A stretch of 64,000 nucleotides of DNA from Bacillota bacterium (GTDB lineage Bacteria > Bacillota > Clostridia > Oscillospirales > Oscillospiraceae). A model generated the notes under the pieces. That model ran no database searches, was not told the origin of the DNA, and saw only the letters and a list, made by a program, of their open reading frames with translations. Position 1 is the first letter of the stretch. Every line of letters begins with the position of its first letter. A program made the translations under genes and the position numbers. This document shows, one piece after another, positions 14,020-19,464 of this stretch. Location: NCBI GenBank assembly GCA_030535235.1, contig JAUNCL010000012.1:1-64000 (forward strand). The letters run 5' to 3'.

Positions 14020-15300
14020 ATGAACAGACTGGTTGGCTGGCTCTTCGGCACGGTGACTGCCCGGGTGGTGGGGGCCCAGCCGGAGGATTTCCTCAACCTC
14101 TGCGCCAGGGAGAACCTCATCCTCTGGCGGATGGAGCGGCTGGACCCCTTTACCCTCCTGGTCCGGGTCAGCGGCCGGCAGTACCCCCGGATGTGCCGTC
14201 TGGCGGAGACCTGCCAGTGTACGGTCCAGGGGCCCAAGCGCCGGGGCCTGCCCTTTTTCCTGCTGGGCTTTCGCCGGCGGTACGCCCTGCTGGCGGGACT
14301 GATCCTGTGCCTGGTCCTGGGCCTGGTGGGGGGACAGGTGGTGCTGACGGTGGAGGTCTCCGGCAATGAGAAGATTCCGGAGGAGGTCATCATCAGCCAG
14401 CTCCGCCTGTGCGGGGTGAGCACGGGAACCTGGGGACCCTCGGTCCCCATTCGGGCGGTGGAGAACCGGATGATGCGGTTCAGCGATGACCTGGCTTTCT
14501 TTTCTCTGAACCTGCGGGGGACCCGGGCGGAGGTCATCGTCCGGGAGCGGGACCCGGCCCCCAAGCGGAAGGAGGAGAAGGTCCCCACCAACATCGTGGC
14601 CACCGCCGACGGGGTCATCACCCACCTGGAGCCCTGGCGGGGGGACGCCCAGTTCGTGGAAGGGGATCCGGTTCAGAAAGGAGATATCCTCATCTCCGGC
14701 CGCATCCGCCTGGACCCGCCCCCCAATGTGGAGTCCGAGCTGGGCACCGCCCTGGTCCATGCCGACGGCAAGGTGCTGGCCCGGACCCAGCGGACCCTGA
14801 CGGCGGAGCTCTCCTTGACCGCCCCGGGCAAGAACTACACCGGGGAGAAGGTCACCCGCCGGTTTCTCTCTGTCATGGGACGCCGGATTAATTTTTACAA
14901 AAACAGTGGAATCCCCTATGAGAAATATGATATAATATCTCAATTAAAGTCCTGGACCCCCGCCCCGGGCAGAACCCTGCCGGTGATCTGGGGGAAGGAG
15001 ACGGTGCAGGAATACACCGACGCAGCCGTCCGGCTGGACGGGACCCGGGCGGAGGAGCTGCTGCGGCAGAAGCTGCTGGAGGCCCTGGAGGAATCCCTGG
15101 ACCAGGGAGAGATCCTCCAGACCGAATTCTCCACGGAGCAGACGGGAGAGGTCCTCCGGGTGACCCTCCAGGCCCAGTGCGACGAGCAGATCGGCCGGAT
15201 GGAGAAGATGGACACCCAAGAGATCGTGCTCGGCCCCCTGCACCCGGACAAGGGGACCTACGGCCAGGACGAGACGAATACAAAGGAGCAAAGCCCATGA
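14020..15300 (+). CDS. yqfD: Sporulation protein YqfD
   Basis: 426 residues. A cytoplasmic N-terminal domain of about 85 residues is followed by one membrane span (YALLAGLILCLVLGLVGG) and an extracytoplasmic part with a POTRA-like segment (VEVSGNEKIPEEVIISQL) and GVITHLEPWRGDAQFVEGDPVQKGDILISG, a lipoyl/barrel-like module. It is linked with yqfC in sporulation and stops on the ATG of phoH (ATGA overlap). A local AT-rich stretch at 14885-14950 containing tataat is unlike the rest of the gene and could hold an internal promoter for phoH. Confidence 0.92.
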   Translation: MNRLVGWLFGTVTARVVGAQPEDFLNLCARENLILWRMERLDPFTLLVRVSGRQYPRMCRLAETCQCTVQGPKRRGLPFFLLGFRRRYALLAGLILCLVLGLVGGQVVLTVEVSGNEKIPEEVIISQLRLCGVSTGTWGPSVPIRAVENRMMRFSDDLAFFSLNLRGTRAEVIVRERDPAPKRKEEKVPTNIVATADGVITHLEPWRGDAQFVEGDPVQKGDILISGRIRLDPPPNVESELGTALVHADGKVLARTQRTLTAELSLTAPGKNYTGEKVTRRFLSVMGRRINFYKNSGIPYEKYDIISQLKSWTPAPGRTLPVIWGKETVQEYTDAAVRLDGTRAEELLRQKLLEALEESLDQGEILQTEFSTEQTGEVLRVTLQAQCDEQIGRMEKMDTQEIVLGPLHPDKGTYGQDETNTKEQSP

Positions 15301-16304
15301 TCGAACAGACAGTCAGCATTGAACGGATGGAGGAAGCCATCGCCATTTTCGGTTCCTTTGACGAGAATATCCGCCTCATCGAGAAGGAGCTGGGGGTCCG
15401 CGTGGTGGGACGGGATGACCAATTAAAAATCTCCGGCGAGCCCGAGGCGGTGATGTATGGGACCAAGGTGATTGAGTCCCTCATCGGTCTGTCCGGCCGG
15501 GGAGAGGCCATCAACGAGCAGACCATCCGCTACCTCATCCAACTGGTGAAGTCGGGCAACGAAGACAAGATCCAGACGCTGGCTGCCGATGTGCTCTGCG
15601 TCACCGCCAAGGGCAAGCCCATCAAGGCCAAGACCGTGGGCCAGAAGAAGTATATCGAGGCCATTCAGAAAAACACCATCACCCTGGGGGTGGGGCCGGC
15701 GGGCACCGGCAAGACCTACCTGGCCGTGGCCGCCGCCGTGGCCGACTTCCGGGCCAAGAAGGTCAACCGCATCATCCTCACCCGCCCGGCGGTGGAGGCC
15801 GGCGAGCACCTGGGCTTCCTCCCCGGCGACCTCCAGAGCAAGGTGGACCCCTACCTGCGGCCCCTGTACGACGCCCTCTTTGAGATGCTGGGGGCCGAGA
15901 GCTACGCCAAGTATGTGGAGCGGGGGAACATCGAGGTAGCCCCCCTGGCCTACATGCGGGGCCGCACCCTGGACGACTCCTTCATCATCCTGGACGAGGC
16001 CCAGAACACCTCCCGGGAGCAGATGAAGATGTTCCTGACCCGCCTGGGCTTCGGGTCCAAAATCGTCATCACCGGCGATATCACCCAGATCGACCTGCCC
16101 GGCGAAAAGGTCTCCGGCCTGAAGGAGGCCATGCGGGTTCTCAACGGGGTGGAGGACATCGCCATCTGCCGCCTGAACGAGAGCGACGTGGTCCGTCATG
16201 TCATCGTCCAGCGGATCATCAAGGCCTACGAGGACGACGAAAAGGCCAGAAACCGGGCCGCCGGTCCCAACGGCTACAAACGGAGCGAGCACAACAAAAA
16301 ATAA
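15297..16304 (+). CDS. phoH: PhoH-like P-loop ATPase
   Basis: 335 residues. A short KH-like N-terminal region (about 1-70) precedes the PhoH ATPase domain with Walker A GPAGTGKTYLA, Walker B FIILDEAQN and KIVITGDITQIDLP. Family members are RNA-associated ATPases, often beside ybeY and era, so a role in rRNA processing or turnover is plausible. The start ATG 15297 overlaps the yqfD stop and has aaaggagc upstream. Confidence 0.95.
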   Translation: MIEQTVSIERMEEAIAIFGSFDENIRLIEKELGVRVVGRDDQLKISGEPEAVMYGTKVIESLIGLSGRGEAINEQTIRYLIQLVKSGNEDKIQTLAADVLCVTAKGKPIKAKTVGQKKYIEAIQKNTITLGVGPAGTGKTYLAVAAAVADFRAKKVNRIILTRPAVEAGEHLGFLPGDLQSKVDPYLRPLYDALFEMLGAESYAKYVERGNIEVAPLAYMRGRTLDDSFIILDEAQNTSREQMKMFLTRLGFGSKIVITGDITQIDLPGEKVSGLKEAMRVLNGVEDIAICRLNESDVVRHVIVQRIIKAYEDDEKARNRAAGPNGYKRSEHNKK

Positions 16305-16343: not shown

Positions 16344-17783
16344 ATGAAACATGATATCTATATCGACTGGGAGCTGAACGGCCCCAATCCCTATAAGCCC
16401 CTGCTGACCCGGGTCATCACCACCGCCTTAGAGGCGGAGAAGGTATCCATCCCCTGCGGGGTGGACGTGCTTCTGACCACCGACCAGGGCATCCGGGAGA
16501 TCAACTTAGAGCAGCGGGAGATCGACGCAGCCACCGATGTGCTCTCCTTCCCCATGCTGGAGCTCACCCCCGGCGTGCCCCCCACCGGCCAGGGGGAGGA
16601 CGAGCTGGACCCGGAGACCGGCCTGTGTCCCCTGGGGGACATGGTCATCTCCGTGGAGCGGGCTCAGGCCCAGGCGGAGGAGTTCGGCCACAGCGTCCAG
16701 CGGGAGATCGCCTATCTGGCGGTCCACTCGGTCCTCCACCTGCTGGGCTATGACCACCTGGACGAAGGCCCCCAGAAGGCACAGATGCGGGCTCGGGAGG
16801 AGGCCATCCTGGAGGGCCTGGGGGTCACCCGGGACACCTGGAACGAGGAACTGGACAAGCCTCTGGAGCCTGCCATGGAGGAGGCGGTGGAGGTCAGGCG
16901 CTGCGGCATGATCACCATCTGCGGCCGGCCCAACGTGGGCAAGTCCACCCTGACCAACGCCCTGGTGGGGGAGAAGATCGCCATCGTCAGCAACAAGCCC
17001 CAGACCACCCGCAACCGCATCTGCGCCGTCCTCACCCGGGGGGACAGTCAGTTTGTCTTTCTGGATACCCCCGGTCTCCACCGGGCCTCCAACCGCCTGG
17101 GGGACTACATGGTGGATGTGGTGAAGAAGAGCGTGGCCGACGTGGACGGCGTCCTCCTGCTGGTGGAGCCTATCCCCAACGTGGGCGGCCCCGAGCGGGA
17201 GCTCATCGACCGGATCAAGAGCCTCAACTGCCCCGCCGTCCTGGTCATCAACAAGATCGACACCGTGGAGAAGCCCGAGCTGCTGGCGGTCATCGACGCC
17301 TACCGCAAGGTCCACGATTTTGACGCGATCGTGCCCATCTCCGCCAAGCGCAGGGACGGGCTGGAGGAGCTGATGGACCTGCTCTCCGGCTACCTGCCCG
17401 AAGGCCCCCAGCTCTTCCCCCGGGACGTGGTCACCGACCAGCCCGAGCGGCAGATCTGCGCCGAGATCGTCCGGGAAAAGCTCCTTTACTGCCTGGACAA
17501 GGAAATCCCCCACGGCACCGCCGTGGAGGTCACAAAGTTCTCTGAGCGGGACAACGGCATCATCGACCTCCATGTGACCATCTATTGCGAAAAGGCGTCC
17601 CATAAGGGGATCATCATCGGCAAGCAGGGGTCCATGCTCAAGAAGATCTCCTCCATGGCCCGGGCCGACGTGGAGCGGTTCATGGGCACCAAGGTGTACC
17701 TGGAGACCTGGGTGAAGGTCAAGGAGAACTGGCGGGATAACCTGAACCTCATTCGCAGCTTCGGCTTTGACGAGCGGGAGTGA
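16344..17783 (+). CDS. Fusion protein: YbeY rRNA endonuclease plus Era GTPase
   Basis: One uninterrupted 479-residue frame. Residues 1-165 are YbeY, with the zinc motif His128-x3-His132-x5-His138 (HSVLHLLGYDH). Residues about 185-479 are a complete Era: G1 GRPNVGKS (194-201), KPQTTRN switch, DTPG (241-244), NKID (303-306), and a C-terminal KH domain with GIIIGKQGSMLKKI. Both families act in 16S rRNA 3'-end maturation and 30S assembly and are normally separate neighbouring genes, often with dgkA and cdd between; here those are absent and a linker of about 20 residues joins them. Met189 (16908) could permit internal initiation of Era, although its nearest ggagg is 14 bases away. Confidence 0.93.
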   Translation: MKHDIYIDWELNGPNPYKPLLTRVITTALEAEKVSIPCGVDVLLTTDQGIREINLEQREIDAATDVLSFPMLELTPGVPPTGQGEDELDPETGLCPLGDMVISVERAQAQAEEFGHSVQREIAYLAVHSVLHLLGYDHLDEGPQKAQMRAREEAILEGLGVTRDTWNEELDKPLEPAMEEAVEVRRCGMITICGRPNVGKSTLTNALVGEKIAIVSNKPQTTRNRICAVLTRGDSQFVFLDTPGLHRASNRLGDYMVDVVKKSVADVDGVLLLVEPIPNVGGPERELIDRIKSLNCPAVLVINKIDTVEKPELLAVIDAYRKVHDFDAIVPISAKRRDGLEELMDLLSGYLPEGPQLFPRDVVTDQPERQICAEIVREKLLYCLDKEIPHGTAVEVTKFSERDNGIIDLHVTIYCEKASHKGIIIGKQGSMLKKISSMARADVERFMGTKVYLETWVKVKENWRDNLNLIRSFGFDERE

Positions 17784-17850: not shown

Positions 17851-18129
17851 TCAGAATTGACTGGGGGAATAGCGGACGGTGACGATGAGCGCGGTTTTGC
17901 TCTCCTCGTCCACCCGATAGATTACCGTATAATGCTTGATAAAAAGCTGCCGGTATCCCTTGTTGGCATAGACGCCGGTCCGCCGCTCCGGGCATCGGTA
18001 CGGCATGGAGTCCAAAGACAGGATGGCCTCTTCGATGGAGAGGGCCAGCCTGCGGGCGGTCTCTGGTTCGGCCAGATTTTTGGAGATATATCCATAGATG
18101 GCGTCCAAGTCGTCCAGGGCGCGTTTCAT
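17851..18129 (-). CDS. RelE/ParE-type toxin of a type II toxin-antitoxin pair
   Basis: 92 residues from ATG 18129, with ParE/RelE features: ALDDLDAIYGYISKNLAEP helices and the C-terminal strands QLFIKHYTVIYRVDEESKTALIVTVRY. The frame continues upstream of this ATG as LAGEYQVKL, which looks like the usual first beta strand, but no ATG, GTG or TTG lies between it and the TGA above, and ggaggaag sits about 30 bases from the ATG. The toxin either uses a non-canonical start (around 18144-18150) or is truncated. Second gene after the antitoxin, which ends at 18146. Confidence 0.75.
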   Translation of the reverse strand: MKRALDDLDAIYGYISKNLAEPETARRLALSIEEAILSLDSMPYRCPERRTGVYANKGYRQLFIKHYTVIYRVDEESKTALIVTVRYSPSQF

Positions 18130-18145
18130 CAGCTTGACTTGATAT

Positions 18146-18412
18146 TCACCGGCTAAAGTGCTTCCTCCTCAAGGCAGCGAGCCCTTCCTGGGCGTCGATG
18201 AGTGGTCCGCCGACGGCAAGCTGAGCCTCGGCTTCCGCAATGGCCCTGTCGGCAGCCAGCGTGTCCAGCAGCTCCTCATAGGCTTCGATGCTCATGATGA
18301 CCAGATCGCCGTAGCCGTTTTTCGTGATGAATACGGGCTCCTGGCGGGCGTGACAGAGTTCGGAGATTTCCGAGGTGTTTCTCAAGTCCGTAATGGGTCT
18401 GATCTGCGGCAT
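18146..18412 (-). CDS. Phd/YefM-family antitoxin
   Basis: 88 residues. The N-terminal DNA-binding fold IRPITDLRNTSEISELCHARQEPVFITKNGYGDLVIMS is diagnostic of Phd/YefM antitoxins, and the charged C-terminal tail would wrap the RelE-like toxin. ATG 18412 has gagggag upstream. The promoter lies inside a TTGTACA inverted repeat, probably the autoregulatory operator. The pair sits between era and recO, a junction normally occupied only by yqzL. Confidence 0.88.
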   Translation of the reverse strand: MPQIRPITDLRNTSEISELCHARQEPVFITKNGYGDLVIMSIEAYEELLDTLAADRAIAEAEAQLAVGGPLIDAQEGLAALRRKHFSR

Positions 18413-18599: not shown

Positions 18600-18758
18600 A
18601 TGACGTCACAACAGCTGCGGGACCTGTTTTTTCGGACAGGCCTGCCGGAAGCCTACGTCCTCTCCCGTCAGGTTCAGCGGCGGGAGCGGGAAAGGGAGAG
18701 AAGGGAAGACCATGCAGCTCATCACCCAGGGGATCGTCCTCCGGGAAGTCAACTATAA
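18600..18758 (+). CDS. YqzL-like small protein
   Basis: 52 residues. The N-terminal half, QQLRDLFFRTGLPEAYVLSR, fits the YqzL family pattern (a short helix with TG-PE-Y), and YqzL genes normally sit between era and recO, as here. ATG 18600 has aggaggg six bases upstream. The C-terminal half is Arg/Glu-rich and then read from DNA overlapping the start of recO by 47 bases in another frame, so the last 15 residues may be non-functional. The function of YqzL is unknown. Confidence 0.65.
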   Translation: MTSQQLRDLFFRTGLPEAYVLSRQVQRRERERERREDHAAHHPGDRPPGSQL

Positions 18759-19464
18759 GGAGGCCGACAAGATCCTCACCGTCCTCACCCGGGACCTGGG
18801 GAAGCGGACAGTGAAGGCCCGGGGCTGCCGCCGGAAGAACAGCCGGCTCACTGCGGGCAGTCAGCTCCTGGTCTATTCGGAAATGACCATCCACGAGCGG
18901 GGGGAGTTCCTCACCCTCAGCGAGTCCGACCCCCAGCAGCAGTTCTGGTCGGTTCGGCAGGACCTGGAGCTGCTGGCTTTGGCCTCCTACTTCGCTGAGG
19001 TAACAGAGAGCGCCTGTCAGGAGGGGGAGGAGTCCTCCGAGATCCTCTCCCTGCTGCTCAACTGCCTTTACGCCCTGGACACCCTGAAAAAGCCCCAGGC
19101 GTTGGTGAAGGCCGCCTTTGAGCTGCGGCTGCTGGCCCTGACCGGCTACGAGCCCCTCCTGGACGGCTGTGCCGTCTGCGGGCTGCCCCAGCCGGAGGAG
19201 TCCCGGCTCCATCTGTCCCAGGGAGTCCTCCACTGCGCCCGGTGCAAGGGGCAGGTGGGACCCGGCGTGTCCATGCCCCTGTCCCCAGCGGCCCTGGCGG
19301 CGGCCCGGCACATCGTCCTGGGCAACCCCAAGAAGCTCTTTTCCTTTTCCCTGGCCCCGGAGAGCATGGCCCTGCTGGGGGACGCCGCCGAGGCCTTCCT
19401 GATGACCCAGCACGAGCGGGGCTTCCGTACATTAGATTACTATAAACAACTTCTGCGATACTGA
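18712..19464 (+). CDS. recO: DNA repair protein RecO
   Basis: 250 residues. N-terminal OB fold (GIVLREVNYKEADKILTVLTRDLGK), then a helical domain with the zinc site CAVCG...CARCKG (near residues 145-175). It anneals ssDNA and, with RecR, loads RecA onto SSB-coated ssDNA. ATG 18712 has aaggga upstream and overlaps the yqzL-like gene, suggesting translational coupling. mutS2 follows after 37 bases. Confidence 0.95.
   Translation: MQLITQGIVLREVNYKEADKILTVLTRDLGKRTVKARGCRRKNSRLTAGSQLLVYSEMTIHERGEFLTLSESDPQQQFWSVRQDLELLALASYFAEVTESACQEGEESSEILSLLLNCLYALDTLKKPQALVKAAFELRLLALTGYEPLLDGCAVCGLPQPEESRLHLSQGVLHCARCKGQVGPGVSMPLSPAALAAARHIVLGNPKKLFSFSLAPESMALLGDAAEAFLMTQHERGFRTLDYYKQLLRY

Follow-up and report, generated by a model that had tools for sequence, protein, structure and literature searches.

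A fused ybeY-era gene in the Oscillospiraceae, its distribution and its likely origin

The window considered here, that is, the whole stretch of 64,000 nucleotides that was analysed, carries ybeY and era as one gene between phoH/ybeZ and recO. The genes of the locus and the parts of the fused gene are as follows.

14020..15300, + strand: yqfD, upstream of phoH
15297..16304, + strand: phoH/ybeZ, a separate gene immediately upstream of the fused gene (Pfam PhoH, 323 bits)
16344..17783, + strand: fused ybeY-era gene, 479 aa, with an ATG start and a single frame open over 479 codons
16389..16817, + strand: YbeY domain, residues 16-158 (Pfam PF02130)
16725..16757, + strand: histidine triad H128, H132 and H138 (HSVLHLLGYDH), read from the translation
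16830..16901, + strand: linker, residues 163-186 (mean pLDDT 76 at residues 171-180, against 94.4 overall)
16908..17780, + strand: Era part, with GTPase domain (190-304) and KH domain (387-464), from Pfam, NCBIfam and the AlphaFold model
18712..19464, + strand: recO, downstream of the fused gene

The gene mutS2 also lies downstream. Between the fused gene and recO, Pfam detects genes for a ParE-type toxin and a Phd/YefM antitoxin on the reverse strand (17851-18412), and this pair is likely an insertion into the ybeY-era gene cluster.

The gene is one open frame with a complete YbeY and a complete Era. Pfam PF02130 matches the YbeY part with 132.9 bits against a cut-off of 25, NCBIfam TIGR00043 (rRNA maturation RNase YbeY) scores 132.5 bits against 45, and NF000908 (GTPase Era) scores 365.1 bits against 237. 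In the Era part, MMR_HSR1 (PF01926) and KH_2 (PF07650) are both above the Pfam cut-off, and the translation contains GRPNVGKS (194-201), DTPG (241-244) and NKID (303-306), which we take to be the G motifs of the GTPase. The three histidines of the YbeY triad, presumably zinc-binding, belong to an HxxxHxxxxxH motif that is invariant in 20 of 20 aligned fused proteins. The sequence-only reading, that a single frame holds a full YbeY with its triad at 128/132/138 and a full Era, is thus borne out by curated cut-offs and intact motifs alike. Its linker of about 20 residues is right in that the linker is short, but about 30 residues separate the Pfam matches to YbeY and to the GTPase. The match to YbeY exceeds the length of the Pfam profile by about 20 residues, and an acidic, proline-rich stretch (the LELTPGVPPTGQGEDELDPETGLCP region, residues 72-96, 16557-16631) is common to the 20 aligned fused proteins.

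The AlphaFold model of the fused protein (pLDDT 94.4, pTM 0.71) is least confident in the linker. Its Era part superposes on 3iev with a TM-score of 0.91, normalised by the target, and its YbeY part on 7y7o and 1oz9 with 0.88 and 0.89. Stand-alone YbeY proteins (E. coli 1xm5, S. aureus 7y7o and A. aeolicus 1oz9) have the same fold and family score, whereas here the C-terminus continues into the linker and Era. Stand-alone Era proteins (A. aeolicus 3iev and S. aureus 9jkp) likewise share the GTPase and KH domains, the family score and the fold; here, in contrast, YbeY extends the N-terminus, and a start codon is no longer conserved at the old position. The search of the genome, which is 97.7% complete, gave no further YbeY or Era: eight of nine matches covered the GTPase domain only, and the ninth was the fused gene itself.

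A sequencing or assembly error might conceal a stop codon between the two parts, and nothing was found in favour of this. An uninterrupted ybeY-era frame is present in 12 of 16 genomes of the genus, the other four being unfused; in one of the 12, G160, the contig starts within the gene, so that residues 47-479 are visible. The same join occurs in contigs JABUSR010000262.1, JAFSFC010000034.1 and CACZKM010000023.1; these contigs may come from some of the 11 other fused members of the genus. At the protein level, a search of 5.8 billion proteins gave the two-domain architecture in all 120 clusters listed (the best 120 of 8000 scored), with lengths of 440-493 aa and identities of 81-94%. Because independent genomes carry the same join, we regard such an error as ruled out.

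The architecture is already in print. A 2023 review, "GTPase Era at the heart of ribosome assembly," lists YbeY-Era fusions in several Clostridia, some Selenomonadales and Thermoleophilum album, describes an N-terminal YbeY as by far the most frequent fusion partner of Era, and leaves the function of these fusions as a question (PMC10582724). In those fusions, as here, YbeY is N-terminal to Era in one polypeptide. In the portions of the review at hand they come without analysis of origin, linker or start site, whereas here a genus has unfused beside fused members. Thus, what is new here is the history of the fusion, not the architecture.

In the family, 139 of 150 genomes gave a match, and only the genome of the window was found to be fused. 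Many fusions within the family were considered and rejected, since the matches that span both genes read through stops: the 21 such matches besides the window, G028 included, all have a stop codon in between. Two family Era matches (G050 and G103) run off the ends of their contigs. Fusions were also looked for behind Era-only matches with long open frames; among the 16 stretches read (14 from the family, G265 and G694), none has a YbeY motif in the Era frame, and the two with the longest Era frames, L240 and L228, have no YbeY by Pfam. The Era frame of L240 (genome G694, 1020-2489, + strand) is 490 aa long. Some 195 residues precede its GTPase domain and have no Pfam match at E 0.001; they may be an unexplained N-terminal extension, or the true start may lie further downstream in a frame that happens to be open. 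Beyond the family, at least 15 fused genomes were found in the class sample (n = 391), namely this one, ten from one other genus (g169) and a single genome from each of four other families (G176, G245, G525 and G406). The phylum sample (n = 398) added at least one more, G899. In the fusion of G525 (L164), GYEH replaces GYDH at the last triad histidine.

The relationships of these genes were inferred from YbeY and Era without the linker. The first tree (109 rows, LG+G4, quick search) excluded 12 loci that were duplicates or doubtful, and roughly three quarters of the loci L057-L130; the second used a mixture model on 45 rows picked by hand from the 109. On the first, the 12 fused genes of the genus form one clade (SH-aLRT 100) with the four unfused members as sisters (99), and the mixture-model tree gives the two groupings 99 and 98 support. 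Accounting for all fusions takes five changes on the first tree and four on the second, and well-supported branches force at least three on each. A single origin of all YbeY-Era fusions was rejected with a p-AU of 1.8e-88, a value that comes from the 45 hand-picked rows, with long branches present and the group named after the first tree. The review's definition of such fusions does not call for a common origin. Our trees thus imply three or more origins of the fusion within the phylum. A precise count is uncertain, given the long branches of several fused rows and a group that was named only after the first tree.

How the join came about in this genus can be approached from the unfused members and from the junction itself, which contains the following features.

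16877..16884, + strand: GGAGGAGG, a Shine-Dalgarno-like string before GTG182 (duplex -9.3 kcal/mol), not present in all fused relatives
16887..16889, + strand: GTG of Val182, in the column of the former era start codon by alignment with unfused relatives
16908..16910, + strand: ATG of Met189, raised earlier as a candidate start within the gene; the residue is replaced by Ile in 5 of the 12 fused genes

In the 12 fused genes, 198 or 204 nt separate the histidine motif from the P-loop. The corresponding distances in the four unfused sisters are 195, 198, 196 and 161 nt, and two of these sisters have both genes in the same frame. MEIKKSG, the start of Era in unfused relatives, aligns with VEVRRCG in the fused protein, and the former era start codon therefore corresponds to Val182. 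Because the unfused members keep the two genes adjacent, in three cases at almost unchanged spacing, loss of the ybeY stop codon is the likely origin of the fusion, a step that we infer. Translation would then have run through the gap, which became a weakly constrained linker, and the era start codon would have decayed. The loss of dgkA and cdd from between ybeY and era had also been pointed out. It is true that dgkA was not found in this genome, by a search whose control was positive in 8 of 14 known genomes, and that cdd is located on another contig. However, this loss was rejected as the cause of the fusion, because ybeY already adjoins era in all four unfused members of the genus.

The linker itself appears to be read as protein. 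Among the 12 fused genes (66 pairs), dN/dS is 0.55 for the linker, 0.24 for YbeY and 0.20 for Era, and in the six closest pairs pooled the values are 0.18, 0.09 and 0.07. Length differences in the linker are of whole codons only. Since dN/dS falls below 1 and codons are gained or lost whole, the comparison suggests a translated linker under weaker constraint than the domains. This weak purifying selection would also be indirect support for a joined product in the cell. In one close pair, L041/L043, silent and non-silent changes in the linker are equal, with no silent excess.

Such a history is compatible with a neutral fusion, in which adjacent in-frame genes lost a stop and the joined protein is no better or worse than two. 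Adjacent in-frame genes with a stop between them are common in relatives, as seen in the 21 of 150 family genomes with a match across both; spacing is nearly unchanged in three of the four sisters, and the linker is weakly constrained. On the other hand, the same gene order was fused at least three times on the trees, and the join is kept by all 12 members of the clade. The neighbouring pair phoH-ybeY, by comparison, is fused in none of the 109 loci in which phoH was found (46 more loci have no phoH in the flank), a comparison biased by the deliberate search for fused ybeY-era loci. On balance, we consider neutrality rather unlikely.

Whether the fused gene still yields a free Era bears on how the join should be read. 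Met189 had been raised as a possible start of such a product. The old start aligns with Val182 and not with Met189, and an internal start at Met189 was rejected as not conserved. Free Era from Met189 is unlikely, because five of the 12 fused genes have Ile in its place and because four of the 12 (L039, L040, L041 and L043) have no in-frame ATG, GTG or TTG from the C-terminal helix of YbeY to the P-loop. In this genome, GGAGGAGG with GTG182 is possibly a weak internal ribosome site: its duplex energy compares with a median of -4.7 kcal/mol for in-frame start codons inside Era of fused genes (n = 275). Some free Era may thus be made here, since GTG182 has a good Shine-Dalgarno string, but not as a conserved feature. 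A stronger version of this idea is that free Era is still produced, via internal initiation (GTG182 or ATG178/189) or cleavage of the linker, and that the fusion is a minor or transient form. This would agree with the string before GTG182, with the in-frame junction start codon retained in 8 of 12 fused genes, the one in the window included, and with the low confidence of the linker in the AlphaFold model. We nevertheless consider it improbable, given that a third of the fused genes have no junction start, that L038 has as its sole junction start codon an ATG at -17, that Met189 is not kept, and that the former start position is not kept as a start codon.

What the joined protein may do can be considered from what is known of its separate parts. 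In E. coli two-hybrid tests, stand-alone YbeY and Era bind each other and S11 (PMC5101352). According to the review, Era sits on h45 and the GAUCA/anti-SD tail, Era and YbeY are suggested to cooperate on uS11, and a direct role of Era in final 3' processing is argued against (PMC10582724). The earlier view of YbeY and Era as partners on the 30S subunit thus agrees with interactions of the separate proteins (PMC5101352; PMC10582724). By analogy, the polypeptide with a complete YbeY linked to a complete Era is likely, with a probability of roughly 0.6, a single 30S-platform assembly factor that brings nuclease and GTPase to the 3' end of 16S rRNA at a fixed 1:1 ratio. In the fused protein, as we infer, the KH domain of Era would bind h45 and the GAUCACCUCC tail of 16S rRNA and so keep the tethered YbeY close to uS11 and the 3' end for as long as Era stays. 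The gain would then be co-recruitment and stoichiometry rather than direct gating of cleavage by GTP hydrolysis. Co-recruitment at fixed stoichiometry on the platform is favoured over GTP-gated cleavage because of the position that the review assigns to Era, the suggested cooperation of Era and YbeY on uS11 and the argument on 3' processing (PMC10582724).

A stoichiometric link between an rRNA nuclease and Era has other forms, as the same review describes. Gammaproteobacterial rnc-era genes are translationally coupled, and RNase III-Era fusions occur in Rickettsia; there the nuclease is a different one, and the coupling is via overlap or via fusion with RNase III (PMC10582724). That the fusion arose independently three or more times on our trees is in keeping with a shared site and moment of action of YbeY and Era. 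A genus with 12 fused and 4 unfused genomes and little change in spacing also offers matched natural pairs for testing the function of the fusion.

Unfused relatives also carry a conserved stretch before the era start, typically TTGCTCAAGAAAGTTGAGGATCACCTATG. It was found in 44 of 99 unfused family loci, counted after nine duplicates were dropped; a strict pattern gave 42, and L125 and L132 were added by hand. The leader has the form GCTC-loop-GAGGATCACCT and lies just before the era start, for example in L029 (1484-1512, + strand), L013 (2395-2423, - strand) and L112 (5499-5527, + strand), with 41 more loci. Mean identity over the last 25 nt before the start is 0.495 for era, 0.357 for ybeY and 0.339 for phoH. 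AAGAAAGTTGAGGATNA is present once each in 17 of 150 family genomes, every site agreeing with an era start, whereas the reversed control gave none. Over both strands of the 44 loci, 366 kb in all, GAGGATCA[CT]CT occurs 28 times at era and nowhere else, whereas the shorter GATCACCT occurs 15 times at era and 16 times elsewhere.

This stretch resembles the rRNA site that Era occupies. GGATCACCT equals the tail of the 16S rRNA, GGATCACCTCCTTTCT, in Clostridiales bacterium CCNA10, a relative. According to the review, Era recognises above all the two adenines in GAUCA (PMC10582724). Within the leaders, the second adenine of GAUCA is kept in 42 of 44, the U in 39 and the C in 34, and the first adenine in all 44, the last being required by the search pattern. 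A model built on 23 short-loop leaders chosen by hand matched two of the four unfused sisters, at 43.5 and 43.7 bits, and gave no match in the other two, in the 12 fused loci or in the window. In the 150 family genomes its eleven strongest matches are at era and most later ones are weak; the thirteenth, in G147 with 25.7 bits, lies elsewhere. Across the 391 genomes of the class, it gave seven weak matches at E 0.001 or less; in the five that were examined, no Era gene was found. No Rfam family was found for the leader in 10 loci, the only matches, to RF02855 and RF01395, being below threshold, and no such era leader was met in the literature listings searched or in passages of PMC10582724. The leader finding may be more novel than the fusion itself.

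Tentatively, the leader GCTC-loop-GAGGATCACCT-ATG could copy the Era-binding site of 16S rRNA, a helix with GAUCACCU directly after it. Era would bind it and repress its own translation, and the fusion would have removed this feedback, substituting a fixed 1:1 ratio with YbeY; we hold this to be possible, though we lean against it. The conserved GAGG is also a likely ribosome binding site, and the leader is absent from over half of the unfused family loci. The hairpin is not demonstrated, because covariation was not found (98% of cells are paired and no pair type changes, in an alignment fitted to the structure) and because the folding energy of three leaders is no better than that of shuffles (z -0.01, -0.42 and 0.37). 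If the feedback reading is correct, the genus would be a natural before-and-after experiment in the dosing of an essential ribosome-assembly GTPase, and a leader bound by Era would give an assembly factor a direct route for sensing unfinished 16S 3' ends. In the fused clade, since the leader of the relatives was not found and the old start is not conserved, the level of Era is likely set mainly by the ybeY start.

In one family genome, G125, the leader occurs twice (L211, 2142-2171 and 2700-2729), at era and about 560 nt upstream, after ybeY and before an inserted gene, this upstream copy being the twelfth match of the leader model. The inserted gene looks, by eye only, like a GNAT acetyltransferase, and the pair of leaders appears as if the insertion had duplicated the leader.
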